This document shows, piece by piece, positions 1 to 41,135 of a stretch of DNA of 41,135 bases. The translations under genes and the position numbers were made by a program. This DNA comes from a virus. Location: positions 1 through 41,135 of the IMG/VR virus record IMGVR_UViG_3300042923_000953. One strand, written 5' to 3'. The notes under the pieces were generated by a model. That model was given only the letters and a program-made list of their open reading frames with translations. It ran no database searches and had not been told where the DNA came from. The first letter of the stretch is position 1, and each line of letters opens with the position of its first letter.

Positions 1-47
1 TGAAGATGAATACTTAGAACCATGATGACTTATTTTTAAATAATCAA
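1..47 (-). pseudogene. comEC: comEC 3' fragment, cut off by prophage insertion
   Basis: Read on the minus strand, these bases encode LKISHHGSKYSSS in frame. This matches the C-terminal metallo-beta-lactamase-like part of ComEC/Rec2, where an HHGS motif is typical. The same LKISHH residues are encoded at the other end of the prophage, where the frame then stops. The piece continues beyond the left window edge. Upstream (48-108) the frame runs into prophage DNA and meets a TAA at 106-108 without an ATG, so no start for this fragment is evident. It is presumably silent while the prophage is present. Confidence 0.85.
21..47. other. attL: attL core (27-bp direct repeat)
   Basis: Twenty-seven bases starting catgatgactta are identical to 40060-40086. 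Flanking bases differ on both sides (c at 20 versus a at 40059; g at 48 versus c at 40087), which fixes the repeat limits. The repeat lies inside comEC codons for the ISHH motif, and joining the outer flanks across one copy restores the comEC frame. Confidence 0.92.
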
Positions 48-25204: not shown

Positions 25205-25804
25205 CTATAATAAAGTTTTTAATATCCGCTTATTTTCATAAGTCTTCTTAAATCCATTGGCTTGTACATCCCTTAAAGTTTTAACATCTTCCGCATGTCT
25301 TACCGGATAGCAAATTAGTTCTTTGAAGTAAGCTTCAGGATTATTAAAATCAATAACCTTTTTATATGTTCCTAAACAAACACTCCCCTGATCGTTAACA
25401 TGTCCAATTCTAAGAGGATATAATTTAGAATCAGGATTCAATTGTTCGTTGTCGTCTATATAGAATAGATAGATTGATTGTTTCTTTTTGACTGCTACTA
25501 TATCCGGTAACTTACATTCAAACACTAGTGTTTCATCTTTGCTTGATACAAACGGAATATAGTAAGTATCTTCAGGTAATACCATAATGATTGAATCTGT
25601 GTCCACGTCATACATATACGCATTCTTAGGTGGTTGCAGCCATTTAATCGGTTTCTCTGAATTCTTTTTGTTTAGGATGTCTTTCACATTGTCCAGTACC
25701 TTAATACAATCCTTTGGATCAATGTAACCCTTCTTTGTGAAATCACCATGTTTGTATTTTATCTCCGGTAATCCTTTATCTTTGATTGTCAATTGAAACT
25801 CCAT
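25205..25804 (-). CDS. E2-like/PRTRC-B-type conjugation protein
   Basis: A 199-aa protein. The N-terminal part is beta-rich. The centre, DSKLYPLRIGHVNDQGSVCL followed by GT (Cys143), resembles the P-x-x-N-x-x-x-x-G-x-V-C-L-G motif of PRTRC system protein B and other bacterial E2-like proteins, where the Cys would accept the ubiquitin-like modifier. A helix follows (NNPEAYFKELICYPVR). It ends the four- to five-gene block starting with the Ubl and E1 genes. Homology is judged by motif and context only; if the Cys is structural, the protein could be a non-catalytic partner. Confidence 0.68.
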   Translation of the reverse strand: MEFQLTIKDKGLPEIKYKHGDFTKKGYIDPKDCIKVLDNVKDILNKKNSEKPIKWLQPPKNAYMYDVDTDSIIMVLPEDTYYIPFVSSKDETLVFECKLPDIVAVKKKQSIYLFYIDDNEQLNPDSKLYPLRIGHVNDQGSVCLGTYKKVIDFNNPEAYFKELICYPVRHAEDVKTLRDVQANGFKKTYENKRILKTLL

Positions 25805-26152
25805 TTAAAACAACACCTCATCTTTCTGATTAAGTCTAATATAATCATCCTTTTGTTCTAACCGCCTTAAATATTCGCTAAAATCAACCATTCTATCAAA
25901 ATCATTCATTTGGTCACATATTTGCTCTAATACATAAGCAATATCTTTTCGCAGTAGAGGTTCTTCAATTCTAAGTAAAATTACTTCAAAATTTTCTTTG
26001 TCAGAAATTGCAACTAAATAATCTACAACATCCTTATAGGTCCGGGTTTTCAATATCCCTTGCCTCGTTAGTTGTTTCTTCTTGATTTCGTAAGTACCAG
26101 GATGTACTACATTTGTCAGCAAATCTTGAAATTTCTTGGTAGAAGAGTCCAT
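25805..26152 (-). CDS. unknown protein of Ubl cassette (115 aa)
   Basis: Starts MDSSTKKFQDLLTNVVHPGT after GGAGGGAAG. The first ~39 codons overlap the end of the preceding gene in another frame. The C-terminal half is helical and charged (VLEQICDQMNDFDRMVDFSE). Its stop abuts the start of the E2-like gene (25804), so the two are likely coupled. No family recognised; its place between E1 and E2 genes suggests a cassette component. Confidence 0.6.
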   Translation of the reverse strand: MDSSTKKFQDLLTNVVHPGTYEIKKKQLTRQGILKTRTYKDVVDYLVAISDKENFEVILLRIEEPLLRKDIAYVLEQICDQMNDFDRMVDFSEYLRRLEQKDDYIRLNQKDEVLF

Positions 26153-26615
26153 TTACTTCCCTCCCTTCATCGATTAACCCAACATGTACCACTCTGCCTT
26201 GATATGAAATTGAAGTAGACGGAATAGTACAGTTCTTTTGCCAATCAACTACACCTGATAGATACCAGGATACTCCTAACACATATATTTCAGCATGAGG
26301 TAACTTATTAAATAATTTTGGATATTCAACCTCTAAGATGCTTCTGTGCATGGGTATTACTTTGTGACAGTTCCATTTTTTGTTTAGAGAGAATTCATCA
26401 TTATATGAAAGTATCTTGCAAATTTCATTTATACTTCCTAACAGAGTGAAATCATCTTTACTTTTCATTGATTCGTACAAATTCATAGTTACTTCATTCC
26501 TATAGTTTCTAGGTGGAACTTTTGAGTCCTTCAATTTGTTGATGAAGTCCATTCTTTCGTTATGGCTTTTTTTGAAGAATGGATTCTCCAGTAGACTATC
26601 TAATTTCGACGACAC
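26034..26615 (-). CDS. unknown protein of Ubl cassette (193 aa)
   Basis: Starts MSSKLDSLLENPFFKKSHNE and overlaps the E1 gene by 20 nt. A helical N-terminal half precedes a possible mixed-fold part (LPHAEIYVLGVSWYLSGVVD, then YQGRVVHVGLIDEGREVNG). I looked for the H-x-H...S...D metal site of JAB deubiquitinase-like peptidases (PRTRC-A type) and do not see it. The last ~39 codons overlap the next gene in another frame. A cassette-specific partner is the best description. Confidence 0.62.
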   Translation of the reverse strand: MSSKLDSLLENPFFKKSHNERMDFINKLKDSKVPPRNYRNEVTMNLYESMKSKDDFTLLGSINEICKILSYNDEFSLNKKWNCHKVIPMHRSILEVEYPKLFNKLPHAEIYVLGVSWYLSGVVDWQKNCTIPSTSISYQGRVVHVGLIDEGREVNGLFYQEISRFADKCSTSWYLRNQEETTNEARDIENPDL

Positions 26616-27312
26616 GACTAATCACCTCACCAAAATATATTATTCCTACTCTTGTGGTTCCTCGAATATAATCGTTAATGAGTTCTAATGCTGTTATAGC
26701 TGCTTTTCGATTTGCGATTATCGTTTGATCATTACCAGCTGCAACTTCATCAGAACAACTAGCTTCATCTTCAACTACTAACTTTTCGGTTCCTGATTTA
26801 TCTTCCAGAACATTAGGATCATATTCACTTCTAAAAGCACCTTCAAATATATTTTCTTCTGAACCATATTTAATGTACACCGCAACAACTTCACCGGTCT
26901 TTTGACCATTAGCACAATCAACGTAATAATAGTTACTATTTCCTTTCAAGTACTCTTCAATTAATTTTCTTGTTGGATGATTATCAACACAACCTACGAT
27001 AATTTTCTTTCGATAATCCCAATTTTGTAATTTACTAAAAATTCCAATGGCATTTAATTCATTCACATATTCATTACAATAGTACAAATTACTTAACCCT
27101 AATGCAGCTGTAGCTGTATCTACTAAGCATTCAGCCTTAAATTTTTTAACGTGCTTTTTGCTAAAATGCTGTCTTCCTATATTTTTTGTTTGTACCCTGT
27201 CACCATCTACAAGATATATATCAGCTTTGATATCGCATCTGACTAGATCCTGGAACAGAGCGGAACCAGTTCCGCCTGCTCCAATAATCATAATTCCAAT
27301 ATTATTCCCCAT
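26596..27312 (-). CDS. ThiF/E1-like activating enzyme (PRTRC ThiF type)
   Basis: A 238-aa protein. The Rossmann ATP-binding loop GAGGTGS lies at residues 11-17, followed by IYLVDGDRVQTKNIGRQHFS with the metal/ATP residues. GCVDNHPTRKLIEEYLKG is the adenylation-domain signature, and EASCSDEVAAGNDQTIIANR carries Cys186, matching the CS-x-(A/E)...Q-x-x-x-x-N-x pattern of PRTRC-type ThiF proteins. It should adenylate the C-terminal Gly of a ubiquitin-like protein and perhaps form a thioester. It is 6 nt from the Ubl-like gene upstream and overlaps the next gene. No MoeB-type zinc CxxC pairs are seen. Confidence 0.88.
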   Translation of the reverse strand: MGNNIGIMIIGAGGTGSALFQDLVRCDIKADIYLVDGDRVQTKNIGRQHFSKKHVKKFKAECLVDTATAALGLSNLYYCNEYVNELNAIGIFSKLQNWDYRKKIIVGCVDNHPTRKLIEEYLKGNSNYYYVDCANGQKTGEVVAVYIKYGSEENIFEGAFRSEYDPNVLEDKSGTEKLVVEDEASCSDEVAAGNDQTIIANRKAAITALELINDYIRGTTRVGIIYFGEVISRVVEIR

Positions 27313-27318
27313 AATCTA

Positions 27319-27741
27319 TTACCCCTTTGAATTGCCTTGAATAGTAACCGCTAAGATCCCACGTTCTTCGTTATATGCAAAGTTTGTTTTACCTTCTTTA
27401 AATTCATAATAGCCATTAGCATTTAGTCTATCTATCAATTGTTTTTCGGTGTATTCAGTGTTTTCATCTATACCAATTTCATTGTAGATGTCGGTTGCTC
27501 CATATCTAAATACTTTGATGTCTTTATAGGTTTTTGATTTAGTAGCTGGAATAGTAGGTTTTTTCCCTTCAGGTTTATCTTCAGATTCTTCAACATCTTC
27601 GTTTTCTTCATCGTCTACTGGTTCAGGTTCTGTGACTATTGATGGTTTTTCAATAACTGGTTTAACTTTAATTTCTTCTATTTTTTCTATAATTTCACCT
27701 GATTCAAAATCAAATGTTAATTCTTTTTCATTATTTTTCAT
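27319..27741 (-). CDS. ubiquitin-like (PRTRC-C-type) protein with acidic N-terminal tail
   Basis: A 140-aa protein in two parts. Residues 1-70 are a low-complexity Glu/Pro/Lys tail (VEESEDKPEGKKPTIPATKS). Residues about 71-140 look like a beta-grasp domain (KTYKDIKVFRYGATDIYNEI, then LLIDRLNANGYYEFKEGK-type helix and strands) ending GILAVTIQGNSKG. PRTRC system protein C likewise ends in GTKG beside a ThiF gene. The terminal Gly adjacent to an E1 gene suggests it is the activated modifier. Shine-Dalgarno is GAGGTGG; it overlaps the upstream gene by 11 nt. Confidence 0.65.
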   Translation of the reverse strand: MKNNEKELTFDFESGEIIEKIEEIKVKPVIEKPSIVTEPEPVDDEENEDVEESEDKPEGKKPTIPATKSKTYKDIKVFRYGATDIYNEIGIDENTEYTEKQLIDRLNANGYYEFKEGKTNFAYNEERGILAVTIQGNSKG

Positions 27742-28057
27742 TTAATCCACCTCTATTTATATTATCTTCTAATTTTGGCTCTTGAGATTTAACCCATTTT
27801 TCAAAAGATTTAATGATATTTAGCATCTCAATATAATCCTTTTCAGTCATATTAGCATTAATGATAAAATGTTTGAAAAACTTACCTCTATAAGCATAAA
27901 TTGATATTACATAGCCTTCATCACCGCTATATATTGAAATATTTACGTTATCCTTAATTCCATCTATTTCTTCATTTAAGCGTTTATAAAACCATTCATT
28001 TACACTTTCATAATAATAGTCATTTAAAATTAGAAACTTTTTAAGGTTCTCTATCAT
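27731..28057 (-). CDS. hypothetical 108-aa early protein upstream of Ubl gene
   Basis: Starts MIENLKKFLILNDYYYESVN. A mixed fold with NISIYSGDEGYVISIYAYRG and a helical C-terminus (LNIIKSFEKWVKSQEPKLED). It overlaps the Ubl gene start by 11 nt, so it may belong to the cassette transcript, but it shows no cassette-specific motif. Confidence 0.6.
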   Translation of the reverse strand: MIENLKKFLILNDYYYESVNEWFYKRLNEEIDGIKDNVNISIYSGDEGYVISIYAYRGKFFKHFIINANMTEKDYIEMLNIIKSFEKWVKSQEPKLEDNINRGGLNEK

Positions 28058-30105: not shown

Positions 30106-30972
30106 CTACTTCATCCATGATTGATAACCACCTGAACCAAATATATCCTCTGATTCTTTTTTAAATTTTTCGTTCTCTACTTTTCTTTTTTCATTATCTT
30201 CTTTAGTTGGATGAATTAATTTTTTTACATCTTCCACCGTATAATTTTTTAAAGCCCATGATCGTAGAATTGTATCTGTATATTTGATATTAGATTTTTT
30301 GTAAATTGCTGTTTCTTTAATCGCATGAAAAATTAGCTCTGGATCATACAGATCAAACCATCCTTTAATGAATTCAAAATCAAATGAATTTAAGTTAGGA
30401 TTGATAGTGTTTTGGACTAAATCAACACATTTTTGAAAAGTCAATTTTTCTTGTGTGCGCGTGTTGTTATTTATAGAAGTAGTAGTATTTTCTATATCTT
30501 CTTCTACTTCTTCTTCTATTGCGTGACTTGGCGTGACTTCGTTTGTGACTGTCACGTTACTGTCACGTGACATACTTATTAACCCTTGTTTCTTTCTTTT
30601 ACGTTCATTTTCCTTTCTAATTCGACCTTGTTCACGTATTTGGTCCAATTTATCAATACTTTGATGTTTCTCCCAATTTGGTAAGTAATATTTATCATCA
30701 ATAATCTCAATCATTTCTAAGTTTTGAAAAGTTTTTAATGCAAGCATGACTGTTTTCATGGGCCGATTAAAAACTGAAGATAACATTTCGTCTGTATAAG
30801 CAATTGCATCTGTCATCATCAAAAGCCCACCCTGATTAGATTTGCCGCACATGCACAAAATTTTGAACCAAATTACGATTAATGTATCACCCTGGGGCAT
30901 TGTTTCTATATATTTGATTTTTTCATCATCAAATATATCAGTTACTATCTTGATCCATTTTACTTCCGCCAT
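30106..30972 (-). CDS. phage replisome organiser / DnaD-like replication protein
   Basis: I start at ATG 30972 (MAEVKWIKIVTDIFDDEKIK) after GGTGAGGA, giving 288 aa. This is the classic N-terminus of phage replisome organisers: winged helix with TMPQGDTLIVIWFKILCMCG and VFNRPMKTVMLALKTFQNLE. A charged linker (about residues 125-175) precedes a DnaD-like C-terminus (FIKGWFDLYDPELIFHAIKE). It should recruit the host helicase to the phage origin. Runs such as GTCACG/CGTGAC near 30540-30570 in its linker codons may include an origin, unproven. Confidence 0.88.
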   Translation of the reverse strand: MAEVKWIKIVTDIFDDEKIKYIETMPQGDTLIVIWFKILCMCGKSNQGGLLMMTDAIAYTDEMLSSVFNRPMKTVMLALKTFQNLEMIEIIDDKYYLPNWEKHQSIDKLDQIREQGRIRKENERKRKKQGLISMSRDSNVTVTNEVTPSHAIEEEVEEDIENTTTSINNNTRTQEKLTFQKCVDLVQNTINPNLNSFDFEFIKGWFDLYDPELIFHAIKETAIYKKSNIKYTDTILRSWALKNYTVEDVKKLIHPTKEDNEKRKVENEKFKKESEDIFGSGGYQSWMK

Positions 30973-31102
30973 CTTCCTCACCTACTATTTTTTCACATTC
31001 AATACATACATATGGATAAATAAGGTCCTCTTCAGATTTAAAAATTCTTCCACACTTATGGCAAATATAATCTTTTAATGGTCTCCCTTTATAATAATCC
31101 AT
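30938..31102 (-). CDS. 54-aa zinc-ribbon protein
   Basis: The frame MDYYKGRPLKDYICHKCGRI continues with FKSEEDLIYPYVCIECEK: two CxxC knuckles forming one zinc ribbon. I choose ATG 31100-31102, six bases after GAGGTG. Its 3' end overlaps the start of the replisome organiser by 35 nt. Probably nucleic acid or protein binding; role unknown. Confidence 0.65.
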   Translation of the reverse strand: MDYYKGRPLKDYICHKCGRIFKSEEDLIYPYVCIECEKIVGEEDGGSKMDQDSN

Positions 31103-32492: not shown

Positions 32493-33038
32493 CTAATCAA
32501 TTCTTTTCGGTAATATAATGTGATTAACTTCTGTATAATCACTAACACCTTGAATATAAGCTGGATCAACATTATTTGGTGTTAAACATAATATAAAACT
32601 ATCCATTCCCTGGGTGGCTCTCTCAATTTCCTTTTTACTGAACATAATTTTGTAATTAACGTTTTCAGTTTTCCAAAATTTTGAGGTATTTGGGTATTTA
32701 CCATCAAACTGCCTTAATCTAAGTGTTATTACACCAGTGCTATAAACATTGTTCTTGCCATCTGCTGTGATTACTAGTTCAGTAGGAATTATTCCCTTTG
32801 CTGGCTTTGGAAAGTATCTAAAGTCATTAGAATCTAATAAAATATCTATATCTTTGATTTTGCTTATTAACTTAATTTTTGATTGCCACACTATATATGA
32901 GTTTGTACATTCGAAATATAGGTAATTTTCTTTGCTATATAATTTAATGAAAGTTAATATTGGTCGTGTCACGTTTCCAACACACTTTCTTGCTTTTGTA
33001 AATTCTTTGTAAAATGTTTTATAATCTACAGTGATCAT
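32493..33038 (-). CDS. sliding-clamp (DNA polymerase III beta)-like protein
   Basis: A 181-aa protein. KARKCVGNVTRPILTFIKLY and YLYFECTNSYIVWQSKIKL match the start of a beta-clamp domain (R-x-x-LP-I-L...L-x-x-x-A-T-D). KGIIPTELVITADG and LRQFDGKYPNTSKFW match the end of a second clamp-like domain (I-DG-x-(F/Y)P-x). Bacterial clamps have about 370 aa in three domains, so this is a shortened phage form, perhaps a trimeric or decoy clamp. The family assignment rests on these motifs. Confidence 0.6.
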   Translation of the reverse strand: MITVDYKTFYKEFTKARKCVGNVTRPILTFIKLYSKENYLYFECTNSYIVWQSKIKLISKIKDIDILLDSNDFRYFPKPAKGIIPTELVITADGKNNVYSTGVITLRLRQFDGKYPNTSKFWKTENVNYKIMFSKKEIERATQGMDSFILCLTPNNVDPAYIQGVSDYTEVNHIILPKRID

Positions 33039-40054: not shown

Positions 40055-41135
40055 CTATACATGATGACTTATTTTTAAATAATCAACATTAAGTTGATAA
40101 TCGTTGATCAATTCTTCCTCAATACTTTGACCTATATCACCTGTAAATAAAAAATGATCTCCATTAAAAACAAAAAATAATACTAAAGAATTGTCATTAC
40201 CAGTATTACTATCGTTAAATGGATTTAATACATTAATCTCAATTTCACCACATCTTACTTTATGATATGCCTGAATCTCAATAACGTTAATTCCATTCTC
40301 GGAGGCAACCTTTTTAATCTCATTTCCTAAATCTGAAGTATCAAATTTATTTAAAACAATATTTTTTACATTTATCTGATCAATTATATATTTATAATCA
40401 CCTGCATGATCTTCATCGCTATGACTGATAAATAAATAATCTAACGTACTCATTTGCATTGACTTTAAATAAGGTACAACATTTCTTTCACCAGGATGGT
40501 AGGTTGAACTAGAAAAATCACCAATTCCACCTGTATCAATTATCGCTGTACAATTATTTGAATCACTTTTAATTAATGCACTGTCACCTTGTCCTACATC
40601 AATATAAGTCACTTCATCTATAATACTAAATTTATGGTAAAAAAGCATGACCAATAAAAAAATAAAACTTATTTGTTTAATCTTTTTTTTGACCTCAAGG
40701 TTTTTTAAAATATGATATAAACAAAAATAATAAAAACAAGTACGCAATACACTAAAATAGCCAATATTATAATCTAATATTGTAATTTTATTAAATAGAA
40801 AAATCAATTCTTCAAAGAAGATAATAAAATACTTTAGAAAGACCTCTGATTTTTTAAAAAATGTTAGAAAAATCGAAACTGGAAAAATGATATAAGTATA
40901 ATATAATCCCAGTACTGGACTTAAGAATACACTTAAGAAATTAAAACTAAAGTCAAAATTTGCGGTAATGGGTAAAGAAAATAATTGGGCTATTAAACTT
41001 ATTTTAAATGGACTTAACCATTTATTTTTACTATATAAAAGTTTATGACTCATCAACAAAACGAAAGTGATTAAATATGATAATTGAAAGCCTGTATCAT
41101 AAATTAGAAAAGGATTGATATATAAATTGATGAGA
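40055..41135 (-). pseudogene. comEC: comEC, large 5'/middle part interrupted by prophage
   Basis: The minus-strand frame is open to the window edge: IYDTGFQLSYLITF near 41100 is the ComEC competence-domain motif (GFQLSY). Membrane helices follow. Then comes the metallo-beta-lactamase-like domain with TYIDVGQGDSALI, DTGG and FISHSDEDHAGD. Translation ends LKISHHV-TAG at 40055-40060 at the att core, where an intact protein would read HHGSKYSSS. ComEC moves single-stranded DNA across the membrane in transformation. The encoded protein lacks the end of the Rec2/nuclease-like domain and may be unstable or inactive. The true start is beyond the right edge. Confidence 0.92.
40060..40086. other. attR: attR core (27-bp direct repeat)
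   Basis: Identical over 27 bases to 21-47 and located inside comEC codons. The phage side of the core supplies a V and stop codon (GTA TAG) to the comEC frame. It lies 69 bp after the int stop. Confidence 0.92.

Follow-up and report, generated by a model that had tools for sequence, protein, structure and literature searches.

The nearest described relatives of the locus analysed here are the PRTRC, or type 6d, systems, which were predicted in 2006 (Iyer 2006, PMC1779556). In the open-licence literature, the papers we found describe no function for them, and no paper was found on phage cassettes of the present kind. The window, by which we mean the whole 41,135-nucleotide stretch of viral DNA in IMG/VR record IMGVR_UViG_3300042923_000953, carries five minus-strand genes in the order Ubl, E1, X, Y, E2, spanning 27741 to 25205. 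We consider it likely that this is a compact JAB-less variant of PRTRC (Iyer type 6d) conjugation, lying in the leftward early region of a temperate Firmicute prophage and tagging near the phage replisome. The original prediction was of a phage-borne, PRTRC-like Ubl/E1/E2 cassette of five ORFs, and all five lie at 25205-27741 on the minus strand as it said; that the cassette is more than a chance arrangement is upheld by the family matches of E1 and E2 and by homology of Ubl to a Ubl-JAB fusion.

Ubl (27319..27741, 140 aa) has a conserved N-terminal EKELTFDFESGEI, a charged linker to about residue 70, and the Ubl domain at 71-140 with the end NSKG (Gly140). Its stop is 6 nt from the start of E1 (26596..27312, 238 aa). 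X (26034..26615, 193 aa) overlaps the end of E1 by 20 nt with its start, and Y (25805..26152, 115 aa) overlaps the end of X by 119 nt in the +1 phase; no family is assigned to either. E2 (25205..25804, 199 aa) follows directly after Y, and the nucleotides GAGGTG within the last codons of Y are its candidate Shine-Dalgarno. The conserved C-terminal EV[IL][FLM] of Y/X280 is rejected as a binding peptide, GAGGTG being likely the E2 Shine-Dalgarno instead. The expected early, replication-region position is borne out by the context, which includes a DnaD-like replisome organiser or helicase loader at 30106..30981 (minus strand). Overlapping the Ubl start is a 108-aa gene (27731-28057) with very weak KwaB similarity (E 0.0097); it is not found beside the closest related cassette, that of the prophage L089.

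E1 is ThiF-like, passing PF00899 at 5e-16, and its best family is TIGR03736 (PRTRC_ThiF) at 1.5e-22, where its 80.1 bits are below the curated cut-off of 144.75. It carries GAGGTG, N44/R47/Q48/K59, DNHPTR and Cys186, the last invariant across distant relatives. A PDB search with E1 finds similarity to the adenylation domains of Cap2 and BubCD. PADLOC applied to the cassette gives generic E1-E2 matches only, with no system-specific partner and with the remaining cassette proteins unmatched. Scanning IMG/VR with the single window proteins E1 and X gave no match, and the mixed E1 alignment is too divergent to serve as a scan query.

E2 scores 25.2 bits against PF14460 (Prok-E2_D), just above the cut-off of 25.0, and this family is matched by 36 of 38 E2 relatives. 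A profile made from 45 other loci alone recovers the window E2 at 1.2e-7. Against PRTRC_B its 15.4 bits do not reach the curated cut-off of 131.45. The relatives exhibit a P-N-x(7)-C motif, such as FPNVDSNGSIC in L040, with an Asn-to-Cys spacing that is that of the E2 HPN...C motif; the Asn is replaced by His in the window, in GHVNDQGSVCLG, and likewise in the L020 E2. Cys143, within GSVCLGT, is invariant in the relatives and His170 is invariant in A6. A conserved downstream His was named for the type 6d E2 (Iyer 2006, PMC1779556), and the window E2 has it. The profiles and the active-site motif point to an E2-like identity, one that just passes the Pfam threshold. The E1 and E2 motifs read by the original prediction are all in place, and the two residues that it proposed as catalytic, Cys186 and Cys143, are both invariant.

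Ubl has no outstanding match in Pfam, NCBIfam or PHROG. Its homologue in L020 (1e-11) is the leading portion of a Ubl-JAB fusion; the alignment ends at STKG of L020, where JAB is about to begin, and this point coincides with the NSKG terminus of the window protein. The family is present at 27 loci, with a near-universal -KG end. AlphaFold2 gives a confident domain at residues 71-137, running strand-strand-helix-strand-strand, with pLDDT of about 92 over most of 71-134 and a disordered tail. Foldseek with this model returns nothing significant, the best being POTRA and protein G domains at E 0.3 or worse; hence we term the domain compatible with a beta-grasp, not proven to be one. HHalign comparison with PRTRC_C-type Ubls does not rise above column-shuffled controls. 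The 70-residue acidic tail had been called unusual, which does not hold, as an N-terminal tail is present in about 30 relatives and is typically charged in this family. Bacillus phage KLEB27-3 gp199 (L002:676-1425) is an apparent head-to-tail poly-Ubl, with four repeats of ~57 aa each ending GVKG, near E2, JAB and E1 genes.

Whether a JAB peptidase is really missing depends on the boundaries of the element. A 27-bp att core occurs at 21..47, with the codons DYLKISHHG, and again at 40060..40086, both copies within what we take, by eye from the sequence, to be comEC. This repeat indicates that the window contains a prophage in full, 40,039 bp long, whose insertion truncates ComEC, a competence DNA-uptake gene (comEC is also at 40055-41134). 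The JAB profile matches none of the window ORFs, and because the prophage is complete we regard the absence as real. The original prediction had reported neither JAB nor ParB, and neither is found near the cassette.

Of the 47 loci where a Ubl was recognised, 34 have an exposed -KG end without JAB and 4 have one with JAB; an extended or fused end occurs with JAB in 9 and without it in none (Fisher 5e-7, uncorrected for shared descent, and with a few loci being overlapping copies of one contig). This pattern suggests that a Ubl born mature makes JAB dispensable. Judged from the tree, JAB is lost at least twice, since the two nearest viral relatives of the window keep it and the other clade without JAB occupies a different position. 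Apparent direct Ubl-JAB fusions in plasmids and one phage (L004:5940-6914, L006:5496-6887, L020:7151-8011) suggest self-processing precursors.

The relatives were drawn from a sample of 82 loci with a PRTRC-type E1. L020 has the order clamp, Ubl-JAB, E1, X, Y, E2, and L019 the order ParB, Ubl, JAB, E1, X, Y, E2. Because these closest viral relatives have JAB, fused to Ubl in L020 and adjoining it in L019, and because L019, alone among the relatives, also has ParB, the window form would be a PRTRC relative that has been pared down and not one that arose independently. A ParB/KorB-like protein lies directly upstream of the cassette at L019:5137-7032, on a high-GC viral contig, and ties the L019 lineage to plasmid PRTRC. 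The closest cassette of all (L089/L100) is in a prophage of a 3.2-Mb chromosome from the same taxonomic class as Amedibacillus, with five genes in the window's order, no JAB among them, and an E1 that is 78% identical. By eye, the L089 phage backbone looks unlike the window's, having RecT-like and SMC-like genes, so the cassette probably moves between phage backbones. A strongly supported sister clade of 21 E1 rows, mainly from Firmicute phages, has a clamp, RusA or another gene, then Ubl, E1, a protein of ~280 aa, and E2, again with no JAB. Elsewhere in the sample, two in-frame TGA codons occur in the PRTRC-like E1 of L093, whose organism, with a genome of 1.3 Mb, probably reads TGA as Trp, and L078, a contig assigned to a Thermoplasmata archaeon MAG, carries a cassette in the order E2-JAB-E1.

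In X and Y the original prediction recognised nothing; that stands, in that no PRTRC family matches them, but they are not stray ORFs. As the same five genes, X (47% identical) and Y included, occur in the second prophage (L089/L100), we take both for genuine conserved parts of the cassette. Their 119-nt overlap is also a conserved arrangement, its phase being kept in L020 and the overlap itself being present in L089. Reading X and Y as one frameshifted gene is rejected on the phase in L020 and on the genes being separate in L089. With shallow profiles, no homology was detected from X or Y to the ~280-aa protein of the sister cassettes, to the plasmid-type proteins of ~165 and ~110 aa, or to PRTRC_F, and in such comparisons even two PRTRC_F-like sets did not match each other. 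The ~280-aa protein gives a moderate model (pTM 0.77) with no match in the PDB.

The anatomy of the cassette supports an ATP-dependent relay in which E1 hands Ubl to E2 and E2 hands it on to a target. The exposed Gly140 would be adenylated by E1, Ubl would be loaded on Cys186 and then passed to Cys143, and E2 would attach it to lysines of the target, with X and Y possibly serving as cofactors or substrate adaptors. Because Ubl is made already mature, no maturase would be needed, and the phage itself could presumably not remove the tag. We prefer the phage replication machinery as the most likely site of action.

The reason for looking to the replisome is the sliding clamp. The window has a clamp-like protein at 32493..33038 (minus strand, 181 aa), a partial match to phrog_947, DNA polymerase processivity factor (5.3e-8); it lies 4.8 kb upstream, outside the cassette proper, and is a possible partner. 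Counting cassette loci alone, a DnaN-like gene is beside or near the cassette in four E1 lineages and three arrangements: it abuts or overlaps Ubl in L020 and in most sister-clade members that have a clamp, shares 4 nt with the end of E1 in L005, L073 and L077, and is just upstream of the cassette in L004. The sister-clade clamps are divergent and homologous to canonical DnaN in a profile comparison (Prob 96.6, E 6e-10). In about ten phages RusA or another gene is in the clamp's place, and no clamp gene is near the cassette of L089, the nearest relative. Searching back from the clamp family yielded four contigs only, all already in the set, and so adds no independent support.

The Ubl tails contain isolated hydrophobic peptides, several of which (QFSLF as in L017, QLDLF as in L013, QLALF, QTSLF, QTDIF or QMSFF) resemble QLxLF, the consensus published for beta-clamp binding (PMC4549789). 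The pattern Q..[LMIF][FL] occurs in 8 of 31 Ubl tails against 0.74 expected from shuffles, and Q[LFMT][SDAT][LIF]F in 7 of 31, against 9 occurrences in 325,283 aa of other ORFs (0.028 per 1000 aa), figures that overstate the case because both patterns were picked after looking at the tails. The conserved segment in the window and L089 is ELxFDFxSGEI, in which the window's ELTFDF is only a degenerate form, not a canonical clamp-binding motif. The canonical PRTRC_E of Rhodoferax (L007:3295-3804) has a short acidic-hydrophobic tail ending ADELF. From the clamp genes adjoining the cassette in relatives and the clamp-binding-like peptides, tagging might equip a protein with an arm that binds the clamp. 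More specifically, though this is a tentative proposal that we would not bet on, the flexible N-terminal arm of Ubl would bear a clamp-binding peptide, so that conjugation arms any substrate or modifies the clamp, irreversibly, the deconjugase having been dropped.

A still less probable reading, but one to be taken seriously, keeps the same chemistry and directs it at host defence proteins or those of competing phages, for counter-defence or superinfection exclusion, with the replication context reflecting early expression only. The early-region position in a temperate phage would suit that purpose, as would the presence of the cassette in unrelated phage backbones (the window versus the G057 prophage); no substrate gene co-travels in all cases, and the PADLOC matches amount to generic E1-E2 similarity. 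It leaves unexplained, however, the clamp adjacency in three gene orders and the clamp-binding-like tail peptides, for which action at the replication machinery, our preferred reading, has a place.

Since E1 is a ThiF relative, one could also suppose a sulfur carrier like ThiS or MoaD, in which E1 makes a Ubl thiocarboxylate as sulfur donor and no protein is tagged. This is very improbable: an E2 with an invariant Cys is beside E1 at 72 of the 82 loci, several of the remainder being cut off, and the window has one; Ubl ends in -KG, not the -GG of such carriers, and has a long charged tail; and the cassette contains no rhodanese, cysteine desulfurase, cofactor gene or other sulfur-transfer partner. 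A non-functional, decayed remnant with JAB lost and X/Y frameshifted, to which the missing JAB, the lost HPN Asn of E2 and the 119-nt overlap might point, is similarly implausible and largely refuted by selection, as the overlap is in phase in L020 and present in L089, elsewhere there are many cassettes without JAB and these are conserved, and the five ORFs are intact in the distant L089 prophage with dN/dS of 0.10-0.20 against the window for every gene (dS being near saturation), so that purifying selection acts on all five.

Compared with PRTRC (NCBIfam TIGR03734-TIGR03742) or type 6d, the likeness is in separate genes for Ubl, a ThiF-like E1 and a Prok-E2_D E2 with a downstream conserved His, in rapidly diverging accessory proteins, and in the mobile-element setting. 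Of the features that define type 6d, the window has the stand-alone E1 and E2 with the conserved Cys and downstream His; on the side of Ubl it has the C-terminal Gly, as KG, with a predicted domain that is compatible with a beta-grasp only in its order of strands and helix; and the JAB of the operon is absent from the complete prophage. NCBIfam profiles for ParB, PRTRC_A (JAB), C, D, E and F match none of the seven genes around the cassette, E1 and E2 do not reach the cut-offs of their PRTRC families, Ubl bears a charged tail and stops precisely at -KG, the order is Ubl-E1-X-Y-E2, and X and Y are outside the PRTRC families. Because the cut-offs fail and JAB and ParB are missing, we do not file the cassette as PRTRC; most likely it is related to type 6d and works like it. 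In phage variants the system would then consist of just Ubl, E1 and E2 with an accessory protein or two, and these variants point to a role at the replication fork.

Thermoanaerobacterium pMU3262 (L003), Rossellomorea p25 (L004) and Bacillus phage KLEB27-3 (L002) share with the window Ubl, E1, E2 and small uncharacterised neighbors, and pMU3262 resembles it further in the absence of JAB and in a Ubl that has a tail and a KKG end. They differ in gene order, in the JAB of L004 and L002, and in accessory proteins without detectable homology to X or Y. With CBASS Cap2 E1-E2 and bacterial Bub/Bil the common element is the E1 adenylation domain; in the window E1 and E2 are separate, there is no cyclase or effector, Ubl is of a different family, and the cassette is phage-borne, not a host defence locus. 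In eukaryotes, PCNA ubiquitination and SUMOylation link a ubiquitin-like tag to the sliding clamp. That is an analogy only, as here the tail of Ubl itself would bind the clamp, and modification of the clamp is hypothetical. If our preferred reading is true, the cassette would be a phage-borne bacterial parallel of sliding-clamp tagging, and if the clamp-binding arm is real as well, a bacterial equivalent of PCNA ubiquitin/SUMO signalling in which the logic is reversed.
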